A stretch of 64,000 bases of DNA, from positions 1,042,501-1,106,500 of the forward strand of contig CAJHZI010000533.1 in assembly GCA_905160935.1 (NCBI GenBank). Reading direction: 5' to 3'. The notes under the pieces were generated by a model. The model did not search any database. It was not told the DNA's origin and was given only the letters and a program-made list of their open reading frames with translations. Below, in pieces: positions 9,901 through 15,632 of this stretch. The translations under genes and the position numbers were made by a program. The stretch's first letter is position 1, and each line of letters begins with the position of its first letter. The DNA is from Enchytraeus crypticus (Eukaryota; Annelida; Clitellata; Enchytraeida; Enchytraeidae).

Positions 9901-12900
9901 ATTTCTTGAACGTTTGGAAATGGCTTACACCTCTCCCATCACATCATACAACTTTCAAAATGACAGCTATACCGAGGCTCATTTAATGTCCATTTCGCTC
10001 AAACATAGCACTACAGTTCTCGGAAAGTTTGGTTCCATCACAAAACTGTACCTTAACCGAACCTAAAAGTAGACCTTAGATTATCAATAAGGTTATTATT
10101 GATACGGTTAAAACAAGGCTATCAAGATGGTTAACAAATGCTTCTCGGTTCCTGCTTGGTGGGCTTTTACAAGACCAGCAGATTATGGTTGGTCTATTTG
10201 GCCCTGGTCTAACCATAATTCTTGTATAAGTATATATTATGGACAAAATTGAGCAAAGACAAATAGATGTCAGAACATAATTAGAAACTTAGAAGATTAA
10301 GAAGGTATCAATGAAACAGCCAACTCAATAGCTCGAAAAATACTGAACATACTAAATGAGCACATAAATTATCACAATTTTTAACTAAATAATTATTAGA
10401 ATGATGAATTGATGTACCCTGAATACGTATATATTTTAAATTGATATCCCCGTACATAATATTAATGTCATATTGGCTTTTAAACTTCAAATATAAATGT
10501 GAAACCCAGAAAGGTATAGAAAGCCTTAGGCGGATAAGTCTTAAAAAGATGACTGACTAATATATAGTACATCATATCGTTGATACTATATGATCTGTAG
10601 TAATATGTGCTATGAGAACGTCCCTGACATCATCCCTGGATGAGGAAACGGATGTTAAACCTTTATTATTATTTATTATTATATTAAAATCCTGCTAAAC
10701 TAAACTGAAACACTTGATTTTTTCAAAAACGTACAATATACGAATGAATCAGAGTAGTACTTACAAGGAAATTTCCAGGTCCTCTCCTGAACGATGGAGG
10801 TCTCATCCTGGGCAGAGTGTCCTCTCCTCTGCCGCTCTCGAACCCTGACGAGGAATCGCTGTTATGTGCCTTGGACCACATCTCATTGGAAGATGACAAC
10901 CCGTCTACAACAGTGGCTATTTGAGTTTCTCCTTTAACTACATCTTTACAGTGACCGTTTCTCATATCCTTTCTCGGGCTTTCTCTAGAACGTCTCGCAA
11001 CTTTGTTCCTACAGATGACGTAGATGATGGCTGCCACCAGGATGACAGCAACAACACCTGACACCGACACCACGCAGGCGACGATGATGATGTTTGAATT
11101 AGTCCCGTTGTTGTTGCTCTGAGTTATAACGGCAACAGGATCAGGCGGAGGTGATACAGACGAGTCAATGATGATCGTCAGCGTCACCACCGTCTTCATC
11201 TTTGGATTAGCTTTATCAGCTACCCTGATGCTGAGAACCGTGGCTCCGTTGTCGTGATCAGAAAGATCCGAGGTAACCAATATCTTACCGGATTCTGGAT
11301 CTATGGAAAAGAGTTCGGAAGGAACCGCGAGGCTGAATTGGAATGGAGTGGTTCTGTTCTTGAGCAGATGATGCGGAAGGATCTGAGCGACCACGCTGCC
11401 TTTCTTAGCTCTGTTCGACAGCCAGACTGAGTCGTTGCTGATGGTAGGATAATCGACCACTATGGCATTTCCGCTCTCATCGGTAATATAGAGAGTTATT
11501 CTTGCAGTAGAGGACAATGCCGGGGATCCAATGTTACTCGCAATAACATCGAAATAGTAAACATCTTGTTGATCACGATCGAAGTTACACAGAGTTTTCA
11601 GTTGTCCCGTTTGTTCCTCGATGAAGAAACAGTCTAGTCCTGTTGGAACAGTGTATTCCACTAGATCAGATTTTCCAGTTTCATTTCTGGATTCGTTGCC
11701 TTCGACGGAATAGTGCACGATAGCGTTTATTCCAGTATCCTTGTCAGTGGCGATCAATGTGGCTAGGGTCCTATCTGAAGGATTCTCACCAATAGCAAAC
11801 ACATACGAGGACTGATTGAACATTGGCGGGTTGTCGTTGACATCATCGATGACGACATGAACAGCCGTGGTAGATGTCAACACGGGGGCGCCACTGTCGC
11901 TTGCCATGACGTGTATCTGTAAACCAAACGGCATCTTTTCTCGATCCAATGAAGTGTTGGTAAGTATGATACCAGTGGCTGGATCTATGACAAATAGAGA
12001 ATGATTGTCGCCAATGAGTGAATATGTTATCATTCCATTGAATCCAGCGTCTCTATCGGTAGCATTCACCTGTAGAAGATATGAACCAGGAGGTTTGTTT
12101 TCCTGAATGTGCGCTGTGTAGGATGTGTTCTGAAATATAGGCGAATTGTCGTTAACATCATCAACTTTAACTGAAAGTGTTGAAGAACTGGATAGAGAAG
12201 GCTGGCCGTTGTCCTTGCAGACAATGACCACCTCATACAAAGACTCTTCTTCCCGGTCTAGGACTCTAAGCGTCACCAGTTTATACCTGCCGTACTGGAT
12301 CAGCTGAAGACCAAATACGTCAGATGTTGGGTCCAAGGCACAAGAAACGTTGGAATTCTGTCCCTCGTCGTCGTCGCTGGTTGAAATCAAAGCTGTAAAC
12401 GTCCCTGAATCCGAACCCTCCTTGACTTCCGCCACTCTATCATCGGATAATGTGTTGATCGTTATTTTTGGTGAATTGTCATTTACGTCCTTAACTACAA
12501 TGGTAACAGAAGCCGATGAAGAGAGACTAGGAGAACCTCCATCTACAGCCACAACAGTAAAATAATGTCTTGCCTTTGTCTCGCGATCCAGCTGTCGTGA
12601 AGCCAAACTTACGATACCGGATTCCTCGCTAATCTCAAACAATCCATCGGCTGTTTTACTAGAGAGTCCTGTCGCTTGAATGTAGTATTTAACCTGAGAA
12701 TTAATACCAGTATCTTTATCAGACGCTCTTAGTGTGATCAGAGCGGTGCCTATGGTCGTGTCCTCTCTTACCTCTACCTCGTAGCTCGACTCGTTAAACG
12801 TTGGTGGATTGTCGTTAACGTCATTCACGATGATATCGAGGTACATATATCCTGTTAGCGATTTAACTCCACCTCCCACAGCGGCAATCTAAAATTAAAA

Positions 12901-15448
12901 AAAAAAACCTAGTAGGCAATCAGTCAATAAAATATTAAAAGCCAAATAATAACTGTAATAACTGTAACTATAATAATTGTATCTTAATCGGACTGAGCCG
13001 GCGACAATTTAATTTAGTGTCTTAAAGTTGTTGCCCGACTTTAAGCTAGTGTTATCTCGTTATTGATATTCCTGGACTGGAGATGACACTTTAAAAAAGC
13101 ACCTGAAGTGCCTATATTAACAAATGGACCTTATAATCATGGTCTATTGCATTCACTGAGGAGGCTCAAACATATGTATTATAGATCTTGTGCGCACATT
13201 TGCCATTCATATTTCCAGCTTAAGACACAGCAACTTTGTCAAGTCAGTTTTGATAAGACTCATATTTCATGTTTTATAATATTTTAGCGTATAAAGGCGT
13301 GCAACATTTGATTAAGATAGCACTACCAACACTACAAAATTTTACTGTTAGCTAATTACATCCCTTACGTCACGTTAGAACAAAGAAACAAACGCTAAAT
13401 TCTCAATGTCCACGTCTAGGGAAAACATAAACCTTCAGCTTATATCTGTCCACTGTTTCCCTGTCCAACTTCTCGTTAACAACTAGCTGTAGTGTAACCC
13501 CTGACCACTGCAGAGAAAACTTCCATTCTCCATCTGCCGGAGATATAGCCGATAGTTCATACTTCTGAATTCCATTTATCGGGGAATCTTTATCCAGAGC
13601 GCTAGGGAGAGGAAAAGTGGTTCCTGGAACGACAGATTCCAGTATATTAACGGAAGTAGAATTGGTTGGAAAGATTGGCGTGACGTCATCCAGGTCAATG
13701 ATGTCGATACGAACTGGAATGATCTGGAAGAGATCCGCAGGGCTCTGACCTACATCGAACTCAAGGGCACAGATGAGCTGTGAGGCACAAAGCTCGTCTC
13801 TGTTTATGACGCTCTTTATCTGAAAAATTAAATACTATGTTACTACATTGTGTAGGTTAAGAAAATCCTATGTAAAACGCAATTAATTTCATCATCATCA
13901 TCATCATCATCCTCCCTTGAATCCCAGTTTAACTAGAGTCGGGATACAAATATACTGTCTCAAATCCACTCTGTCCTACAGCACATCCCCTATTTGAGAC
14001 TTTTCCACTATTAATTAATTTCATCAGTAAATATTTAAAATGTCAAAAGGTTCCTTTGGGTAATTTTCATCTTATGGAACTTAATGATGCTTGGTGCTGA
14101 CGAATTGATCAACTTTATCTCTAAGTGTCGTAAAAGGCGAAAAAGCACTAAGATCCACACCAACGTCATAAAGGACATTCAGTTAGTAAGCGTCTAGGAT
14201 CCAGAAATTGCTACAAAATTTTCAAAACCGAATGGAAGATCTTTCGTATTCCAACCGTAGTTAAACTTGAATTCAATGGAAAATGATGATGATTACATTG
14301 TATAAAGTACGAACATTTCCATCTGAAATGAAAGAATTTCATCTTTAACCATTTACAATTTTAAAGATTCTTCTAGATATTTTCATTTAATGATACTTAC
14401 CACTGCTTATGACAAAAAATAGCTCTGCTCCACATGGATAATATTATTAACTTTAATGATGCAGCGTCCTATTTTTGTAAAATGTTTCTTTGAAGTCTTA
14501 GACCGTTATAGCGAATATTAGTCGAATATTTTTCTTCAAAGCTTATTAAGATAAATGTATATACTCAAATCAAGAGATGTTATTCATTTTATACATATAC
14601 ATGTATGTGTAGTATATAGTTTTAAATTGTCATGCGCCTAACGCTAGTTTAATAAGAAAATCAACTGACGAGTCTGTATTATTCATTCAATAGTAGGCAT
14701 ACTATAATCAGAATCTGTCAGTCTAATTCACAAAGAAAAGAACATGTATAAATAAGCCATTAATCTCGAAACTCTCTAATATTGTCGCTAAAGATAGAAG
14801 CTACACAATCGTGCACAATTACTGCAGTTGTTTAACCTGAATGTTTGTGTGTGTATGTCATATCATGTCTAAAGTACTTCTGATTGACTGTCTATATCGA
14901 TGAAATGCGCCATTTATGTGTGTATGTACACATGTGTATGTGAGTGATATAACATACCTCAAGTACTCCTATTTGACTGTCTATGCTGATGAAATCTCTT
15001 CGTATGTGTGCTTGCATGTGTTTGCATGTGTGCTTGTATGTGTGTGTAGGTGTGTGTGACATATCATACCTCAAGTACTCCTGTTTGACTGTCTATCCTG
15101 ATGAAATCTGCTCGTATATTTGCTTGTATGTATGTGTGTGTGTATGTGTGTGACATATCAAACCTCAAGTACGCCTGTTTGACTGTCTATGCTGATGAAG
15201 TTCTGCGAGGAATTGTTCGTCGGATCCTTTAGGATCACAAATCTTAATCTCTTTAGATCATCTGCAGAATATCTCTCCGCCAATCCAGCTTTGTCAATCA
15301 GATTTCCTATAATTGTTCCAGTCGGCTGCTTCTCTGTTGTGCTAAATATCACAGTGGCTCTGACTGTGGAAATCCATAAGTAGATCACGACAATCCACGT
15401 AGGTAGGAGTAAAGTTGAAACTTTCATTTCCATCAACTTCGTGGTCAT
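3368..15448 (-). CDS. Protocadherin, 7 EC repeats, complete gene (5 coding exons)
   Basis: A calcium-dependent, probably homophilic cell-adhesion receptor of the plasma membrane. Coding exons are 15448-15164, 13819-13433, 12888-10765, 4970-4844 and 3966-3368, with GT-AG boundaries and phases 0,0,0,1. They total 3522 nt, or 1173 residues plus stop. Signal peptide is about residues 1-31. EC repeats lie at about 32-145, 146-255, 256-366, 367-476, 477-581, 582-706 and 707-823, with repeated DVNDN linkers and LDRE motifs. The transmembrane helix is at 824-850 and the tail at 851-1173. Seven ECs plus RVHF at 988-991 recall vertebrate delta-1 protocadherins, whose conserved tail motif binds PP1; true orthology is not shown. 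EC6-EC7 lacks the canonical DxNDN linker and EC7 is degenerate. Introns are full of SINEs and minisatellites. The start could also be Met6 or Met8. The exact codon sum and matching phases make the model strong. Confidence 0.93.
4032..4160 (-). mobile_element. SINE-A copy (nearly full) in protocadherin intron 4
   Basis: tRNA-derived SINE. The minus strand shows GGCTGGAGCCAGTGGCGATG (box A side), GGGGTTCAAATCCTGGGCTC (box B GGTTCAAATCC) and the tail CGAGTGAGGAAAATGACG. It lies 65 bases upstream of the exon 5 acceptor. Confidence 0.88.
4590..4843 (+). mobile_element. LINE-B 3' end in protocadherin intron 4
   Basis: Encodes the C-terminal end of a non-LTR retrotransposon protein (INVLRNRKKSWIGYILKGEG, then EGNRGRSRMRLGMLDD), followed by the CGACCTGCCAGTAGGTAGTG tail and a (GA)n run. 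It is damaged relative to the copy at 45215. The tail ends at the exon 4 donor. Confidence 0.85.
4844..4970 (-). CDS. Protocadherin exon 4: cytoplasmic tail
   Basis: 127 nt, entering in phase 0 and leaving in phase 1. The acceptor is TGTTTCACAG at 4972-4971. It encodes a Gly/Asp/Ser-rich tail piece with DSSNSSDSGRG and VHNSDCSS, echoing the NSDSSSGFESGRG motif at the end of exon 3. The donor AGAG|GTCTCT at 4843 directly touches the (GA)n tail of an inserted LINE. The phase-1 end joins exactly to exon 5 to give Asp975. It is not recognisable from length alone; phase, motif and acceptor support it. Confidence 0.82.
6169..6560. repeat. 34-bp minisatellite with E-box cores
   Basis: About 11-12 copies of a 34-bp unit built on CACCACGTGGTAGGGTGCTT and GCTCTAGCCTGAAG. 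Several units keep the palindrome CACGTG. One unit is four bases short. Confidence 0.9.
7250..7523. repeat. Direct duplication of about 130 bp
   Basis: Two copies (about 7250-7394 and 7395-7523) share GATTCAAATTAATAAACACA, TCTCGTTCA.AATTAA and GCCTCTTGAAATAATTAAG. The second is slightly deleted. Confidence 0.8.
7752..7920 (+). mobile_element. tRNA-like SINE, minor family
   Basis: Starts CAGCGTAGCGGTTAGAGTGT (box A-like) followed by GGTCTGGATTCAGTC (box B-like), then an unrelated body. Only one clear copy was seen. Confidence 0.45.
8095..8205 (-). mobile_element. tRNA-like SINE, second minor family
   Basis: The minus strand reads ACGGGTTGGTTGGTCGAATG, then ATCGGTTCGAATCTCATC (box B). It is related to the copy at 45044-45128. 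Confidence 0.6.
8402..8451. promoter_or_regulatory. Three GC boxes at exact 21-bp spacing
   Basis: GCGGGGCG occurs at 8402, 8423 and 8444 in otherwise AT-rich intron DNA. GC boxes are typical Sp/KLF sites. A regulatory role is only inferred. Confidence 0.3.
9277..9369 (+). mobile_element. SINE-A, internally deleted
   Basis: Has the head GGCTGGAGCCAGTGTCGATG joined to the tail CACTGACATCGCTTTCGAG and an (AGCTT)n end. The box B region is missing. Confidence 0.8.
10617..10684 (+). mobile_element. Family D (ATT-tailed) 3' end
   Basis: CGTCCCTGACATCATCCCTG, GATGAGGAAACGGATGTTAA and an ATT-rich tail. Its 3' module resembles that of SINE-A. Confidence 0.7.
10765..12888 (-). CDS. Protocadherin exon 3: EC2 end through transmembrane segment
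   Basis: A large exon of 708 codons, as is common for protocadherin ectodomains. It begins IAAVGGGVK, completing EC2, then EC3-EC7, a 27-residue hydrophobic helix (protein residues 824-850), a basic stop-transfer stretch (RNKVARR) and the juxtamembrane motif NSDSSSGFESGRG. The acceptor is TTTTAG above 12888; the donor is CTT|GTAAGT, close to ideal. Read-through past the donor would add 13 residues and stop, giving a conceivable short-tail isoform. Confidence 0.96.
12889..13432 (-). other. Protocadherin intron 2
   Basis: 544 bases of AT-rich intron between exons 2 and 3; no repeat family recognised. Confidence 0.6.
13433..13819 (-). CDS. Protocadherin exon 2: rest of EC1 and most of EC2
   Basis: Encodes 129 residues in phase 0 at both ends. 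The acceptor is TTTTTCAG just above 13819 and the donor is AAG|GTTTAT at 13432. It carries the EC1-EC2 calcium linker (DLDDVTPIF, residues about 137-145) and the EC2 motif LDRETVDRYKLK, which is completed by the first residues of the next exon. Without splicing the frame would end in a few codons. Confidence 0.92.
13889..14010 (-). mobile_element. GAT-tailed element in protocadherin intron 1
   Basis: Reverse orientation: (ATC)n followed by CCCAGTTTAACTAGAGTCGG and the rest of the 3' end. Confidence 0.75.
14092..14296 (+). mobile_element. GAT-tailed element in protocadherin intron 1
   Basis: Forward orientation: AAAGCACTAAGATCCACACC, TTCAGTTAGTAAGCG, CAGAAATTGCTACAAAATTT and a short (GAT)n tail. 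Forms an inverted pair with 13889-14010. Confidence 0.8.
14856..15200 (-). repeat. Tandem copies of the protocadherin exon 1 donor region
   Basis: Four imperfect copies of a roughly 55-base unit that includes the end of exon 1 (FISIDSQ.GVLE) and its splice donor. The units begin near 15151 (real), 15057, 14944 and 14856, separated by TG-rich spacers, giving periods of about 94, 113 and 88. The second and third copies keep GT donors (GAG|GTATGA and GAG|GTATGT); the fourth has lost GT. Confidence 0.85.
15164..15448 (-). CDS. Protocadherin exon 1: signal peptide and start of EC1
   Basis: Encodes 95 residues. Met1 is followed by a basic stretch and a hydrophobic core (about residues 10-28), with likely cleavage after Ala31. 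The first cadherin strand follows, ending in the FISIDSQTGVLE motif typical of EC domains. The donor is GAG|GTTTGA at 15163-15162, phase 0. Reading past it gives Val then a TGA stop, so splicing here is required. A possible 5'UTR acceptor (TTACAG) lies just upstream of the ATG at 15468-15467. The donor and its flank are repeated in tandem further into the intron. Confidence 0.9.
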
Positions 15449-15570: not shown

Positions 15571-15632
15571 GCAAATCCTGGGCTCGCCCGTCACTGACAT
15601 CGCTTTCGAGTGAAGAAATTGACGTTAACCAT
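15571..15632 (+). mobile_element. SINE-A 3' fragment upstream of the protocadherin
   Basis: Starts inside box B (CAAATCCTGGGCTCGCCCGT) and ends GACGTTAACC. Confidence 0.8.

Follow-up and report, generated by a model that had tools for sequence, protein, structure and literature searches.

The minisatellite of human IFI6 reportedly supplies several splice donors. Two downstream units of this repeat are described as being used as donors, which generates three mRNA species and different isoforms (PMC4526556). A review (PMC3443670) covers intron gain through tandem genomic duplication of AGGT, of which Drosophila cases have been described (PMC2891723). In intron 4 of DOK7, competing 5′ splice sites whose use was shown lie 11 nt apart under the control of SRSF1 (PMC5585400). 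Here, we analyzed a 64,000-nucleotide stretch of the Enchytraeus crypticus genome (the window), in which the end of the first coding exon of a protocadherin gene recurs in tandem within the following intron. The best explanation, to which we assign a probability of about 0.7, is that a minisatellite captured the exon end, that the array is largely neutral, and that the donor at 15163 is the functional one, perhaps with some unproductive splicing besides.

The protocadherin gene lies on the minus strand of the window, and its exon ends were inferred from the reading frame and GT-AG boundaries. The gene, the repeat copies, and the stop codon that matters for their use are located as follows, with a slash marking each exon-intron junction.

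15164..15448, minus strand: exon 1, the first coding exon, with the ATG at 15448, placed by translation and by homology over the junction
13820..15163, minus strand: intron 1, 1344 nt
13433..13819, minus strand: exon 2, the rest of EC1 and part of EC2, with the inferred donor AAG/GTTTAT
10765..12888, minus strand: exon 3, cadherin repeats and a transmembrane-like stretch, its end inferred by eye
14849..15163, minus strand: CA-rich array region at the start of intron 1, with the spacers between the copies
15140..15204, minus strand: copy D, the true exon end and donor GAG/GTTTGA at 15164/15163
15046..15110, minus strand: copy C, an exon-end copy with the decoy donor GAG/GTATGA at 15070/15069
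14934..14998, minus strand: copy B, an exon-end copy with the decoy donor GAG/GTATGT at 14958/14957
14845..14909, minus strand: copy A, the most diverged, its donor lost (TAG/ACATGA at 14869/14868)
15158..15160, minus strand: in-frame TGA that would end translation upon decoy use

Exon 1 encodes a signal-peptide-like start and the first part of EC1, and an acceptor-like TTTAATTACAG is found just upstream of it. By eye, the window at about 15580-15630 resembles about 1151-1201 of another locus of this genome (L003), both stretches ending in ATTGACGTTAACC, and the stretch, a short way upstream of exon 1, has the appearance of a dispersed SINE-like repeat. In the Pfam search, the frame of exon 3 contained five cadherin stretches and that of exon 2 matched cadherin weakly, and the exon 1 frame by itself gave no match at E 0.001. 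Among solved protocadherins, the best match for the spliced protein was Protocadherin gamma B4 (E 1.5e-40), and in none of the three alignments shown was there a gap at the junction 15164/13819 (TGVLE/IKSVINRDEL). Because the spliced protein aligns without a gap across this junction, the coding donor is assigned to GAG/GTTTGA at 15164/15163 in phase 0, where the first-pass annotation had placed it. The gene has protocadherin-like EC1-2 followed by more cadherin repeats. Cadherin_2 (PF08266) had 51 matches in the genome at E up to 0.1, with 50 above the family cut-off, and their distribution over many contigs suggests a sizeable protocadherin family. Scanned against Rfam at gathering scores, the window gave no match, an NCBIfam search with two of its ORFs gave no family, and its G+C content was 0.32-0.40 per 4-kb step.

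The repeat unit consists of the last ~41 bases of exon 1 and ~24 intronic bases, and four copies are arranged in tandem on the minus strand with spacings of 94, 112, and 89 nt. When the 41-nt exon end was compared with intron 1, the copies there showed 35, 35, and 31 identities of 41; the next best site showed 21, and the maximum among 300 dinucleotide shuffles was 24. An nhmmer model of the four copies matched only these four in the window, and when the exons were compared by blastn with introns 1 and 2, nothing matched except the last 36 bases of exon 1, found twice at 94% in intron 1. A GT follows the exon end in three of the four copies, copy A reading TTTAG/ACATGA. The first-pass annotation had stated that the exon 1 end is present four times together with its 5′ splice site; this is right for the copies but not for the donors, and the third donor, which had been put at 14955, actually lies at 14957. 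In addition, mutually exclusive tandem exons were considered and rejected: of the 285 coding nt of exon 1, the copies include no more than the ~41 at the 3′ end, and copy D is no separate exon.

Over 65 sites, copies D, C, B, and A differ from the four-copy consensus at 7, 3, 6, and 13 positions, respectively, and four of the seven differences in copy D are located at -41 to -37, near the unit edge. Such unequal divergence is as expected for tandem copies of unequal age, and the array is a fairly old duplication, not a fresh one. At +3, where they have A in place of T, and at -10 and -37, copies A, B, and C agree against copy D; the true copy may have changed after the duplication, or one changed copy may have seeded the others. 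From the same agreement, the true donor could have been weakened since the duplication.

A search of the genome (524,188,772 bases in 802 contigs) with the core of copy C returned three matches, all inside the array and without copy A, by a procedure that scores the best candidates only and skips very common words, so that diverged copies elsewhere could be missed. Because the matches came from here only, the origin would seem to be a local, CA-rich tandem duplication. An origin of the core from a dispersed element is unsupported, this array being all that the search returned among the best candidates scored. With the whole array as the query, 47 matches were obtained, of which the other 46 fell mostly on the TG/CA spacer (query about 173-229) and a few, on contig C643, extended over a longer stretch at about 72%. 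The exon core was found neither in the part read of locus L002 on C643 nor in the whole of L003, both of which contain a simple or unrelated, TG-rich tandem repeat; that of L002 (1100-2060) is a composite array whose spacers are TG-rich and in which a GTGAGTGTG motif recurs. In the window itself, TRF reported 56 tandem-repeat rows, some of them overlapping.

In 14 other loci, 16 donor regions were inspected and none had a duplicated exon end; we attributed partial overlaps at L003 and a 63% match at L019 to simple or neighbouring repeats. Within this gene, the exon 2 end is not duplicated in intron 2, nor the exon 3 end in the next 1.4 kb. Thus, capture of an exon end is not common, and in the loci covered there was no sign of a feature shared among protocadherins. 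In L003, the donor of a collagen exon (GTGAGT) is followed within a few bases by a 21-bp tandem array (1725-1947), and arrays therefore abut donors elsewhere in this genome. Tandem arrays are frequent, and the capture of an exon boundary by one of them is uncommon but unsurprising. The first-pass annotation had offered a minisatellite that captured exon sequence as one of its two readings, and this one is well supported by the core found only here, the CA-rich spacers, the unequal divergence, and the one dead donor.

Donor strength was examined with two matrices. One was mammalian and gave scores of 2.72 for the real donor, 7.28 for copy C, and 8.81 for copy B, with 1.59 for the exon 2 donor. 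For the other, we took 18 donors of this genome, recognized by eye at the point where a conserved frame stops (16 from other loci and two from this gene), a small sample mostly of related genes, read from the sequence alone and including one entry (L020) readable in two ways; this matrix gave 7.51, 9.28, and 9.74 for the real donor, C, and B, respectively. The decoys had earlier been called stronger-looking and a scoring of the four copies had been proposed. C and B indeed rank above the real donor with both matrices, and copy A offers no GT; the description fits the mammalian matrix well, but the gap is smaller with the matrix of this genome. Among the 65 GT sites of intron 1, the decoys also have the two highest scores.

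There is nothing abnormal about the real donor, which falls within the range of the 18 donors read, whose leave-one-out scores extended from 0.26 to 11.4. T at +3 occurs in three of them. The apparent exon end in the paralogue L027 is the identical 9-mer GAG/GTTTGA, which scored 5.76 when left out of the matrix, with three of the 18 donors below it. Because of this twin and of the exon 2 donor AAG/GTTTAT, the real donor looks less unusual than had been implied. L025 and one collagen exon of L003 apparently have GTATGA as their donor. Both introns of this gene in the EC1-EC2 region have GTTT donors.

Exon 1 ends in LE, and reading past the real junction gives V and then TGA (15160-15158), which leaves 96 residues, just as the first-pass annotation had predicted with a TGA two codons past the junction and a protein of about 96 residues. 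Decoys C and B lie 94 and 206 nt downstream of the real donor with frame offsets of 1 and 2, and the stop would stand 88 or 200 nt ahead of the new junction, respectively. In general, a stop codon more than about 50-55 nt upstream of a junction exposes an mRNA to nonsense-mediated decay (NMD). Since both distances exceed this limit, as in alternative splicing coupled to NMD, decay of the decoy transcripts is expected. Because the TGA intervenes, no longer protein is obtainable from the decoys, and with frame offsets of 1 and 2 the alternative donors would not provide the different protein isoforms reported for IFI6.

We consider that a segment with the last ~41 exon bases, the 5′ splice site, and the adjoining CA-rich beginning of intron 1 was probably duplicated in tandem, and that slippage or unequal exchange in the CA-rich sequence would have produced the three intronic copies. 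The donor at 15163 would then make the functional mRNA, and the decoys at 15069 and 14957 would be tolerated, yielding at most some unproductive, NMD-prone transcript. The three extra exon ends are probably an ordinary by-product of repeat growth. By our own arithmetic, with three to six changes over 65 sites, an intact GT in both B and C is expected by chance about three times in four, and the survival of these donors is therefore no sign of selection. A plain competition model, in contrast, would favour the decoys, because they score best in intron 1 and are nearer the acceptor. If they were used often and at random, splicing noise would cost the gene a fixed fraction of its mRNA, and this fraction might differ among individuals according to the copy number of the array. 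However, the true donor is inside the range of the 18 donors read, and the divergence of the copies suggests a long persistence, which would be hard to reconcile with heavy loss in an important gene, and we regard such constitutive loss as rather unlikely. It is also doubtful, and somewhat more so, that unproductive splicing is regulated here, with factors binding the CA spacers (hnRNP L-like) or the exon shifting U1 between 15163 and the decoys, so that some cells would make NMD-targeted mRNA and less of this protocadherin. A switch between productive and unproductive splicing had been the other reading of the first-pass annotation, and it is conceivable in principle, as the decoys are good donors whose use would be unproductive. 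Both decoys outscore the true donor, shift the frame, and leave the TGA well before the junction, and hnRNP L and LL are described as favouring repeated CA dinucleotides (PMC3823766), so that the decoys might conceivably be subject to a CA-dependent effect. On the other hand, donors surviving in two of three intronic copies are what chance predicts, the donor is dead in the third, no exon-end duplication was seen in the 16 donor regions elsewhere, and TG/CA tracts matching the spacer occur at many places in the genome. Very doubtful, in our estimation, is a splicing attenuator tunable by copy number, in which the CA-rich units, two of them with a donor scoring above the real one, would send part of the pre-mRNA of an adhesion gene to NMD at a dose set by the repeat number or by CA-binding factors.

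The array might also be the birth scar of intron 1, left by tandem duplication of an AGGT proto-splice site. AG/GT is present in copies B, C, and D, and the intron seems peculiar to this gene. A search of the genome with the exon 1 and 2 protein gave 137 matches, two being the exons themselves, and the count covered the 47 top-ranking rows other than self (rows rather than genes, with E values up to 9.2e-8), weaker rows including later cadherin repeats having been left out beforehand. In 40 of the 47, a single frame continues across the site of intron 1, in one case with an internal stop, and the remaining seven start past it. Because none begins or ends near this position, intron 1 would have been gained here or lost elsewhere. 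Among the rows left out, one (E 0.24) starts at residue 88 and another, from the gene's own exon 3, at residue 99; these look like matches of later cadherin repeats. Nevertheless, an origin of the intron by this duplication is highly improbable: exon 2 has no similarity to intron 1, the acceptor TTTTTCAG/ATAAAG is unlike the copies and lies outside them, so that donor and acceptor are not both contained in the copies, and the copies already hold intronic sequence after GAG, from which the intron seems older than the array. An assembly artefact can be given almost no weight, since the four copies, prone to misassembly as repeats are, disagree at many sites and are separated by three different distances. 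As for the region more broadly, the introns at 13433 and 15164 are both missing from the paralogue frames read, e.g., L012 and L036. Intron 1 also holds a MITE-like element at 13888-14293, with terminal inverted repeats (13900-13950 and 14243-14293) that are 80% complementary; it has many copies in the genome, with at least 69 matches, itself included, from 40 scored of 4545 candidates.

The array resembles a natural competition test of tandem 5′ splice sites, with near-identical exonic context, three donor strengths, one acceptor, and an outcome that is simple to read. Exclusive use of the weakest donor, which is also the most upstream, would mean that position or exon context counts for more here than the match to U1; if the decoys are also used, the repeat sets the dose of the gene. 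Automatic gene models may wrongly extend exon 1 at such a locus.

Compared with the described systems, as far as the cited accounts present them, the locus shares with intron gain through AGGT a tandem copy of exon sequence with AG/GT; the copies here, however, sit within an intron that already existed, and its acceptor bears no relation to them. It shares with DOK7 two donors for one acceptor and a choice that shifts the frame; in DOK7, however, use of the sites was shown and 11 nt separate them, whereas the decoys here, known from sequence, are 94 and 206 nt from the real donor. The closest precedent is IFI6, likewise a tandem repeat at an exon-intron boundary in which several units have a 5′ splice site, a GT being kept here in three of four copies. 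The downstream donors of IFI6 are reportedly used and give isoforms, whereas the decoys of this array cannot lengthen the protein. Taken together, the array is of a known kind, another instance of the tandem duplication of an exon boundary together with its donors.
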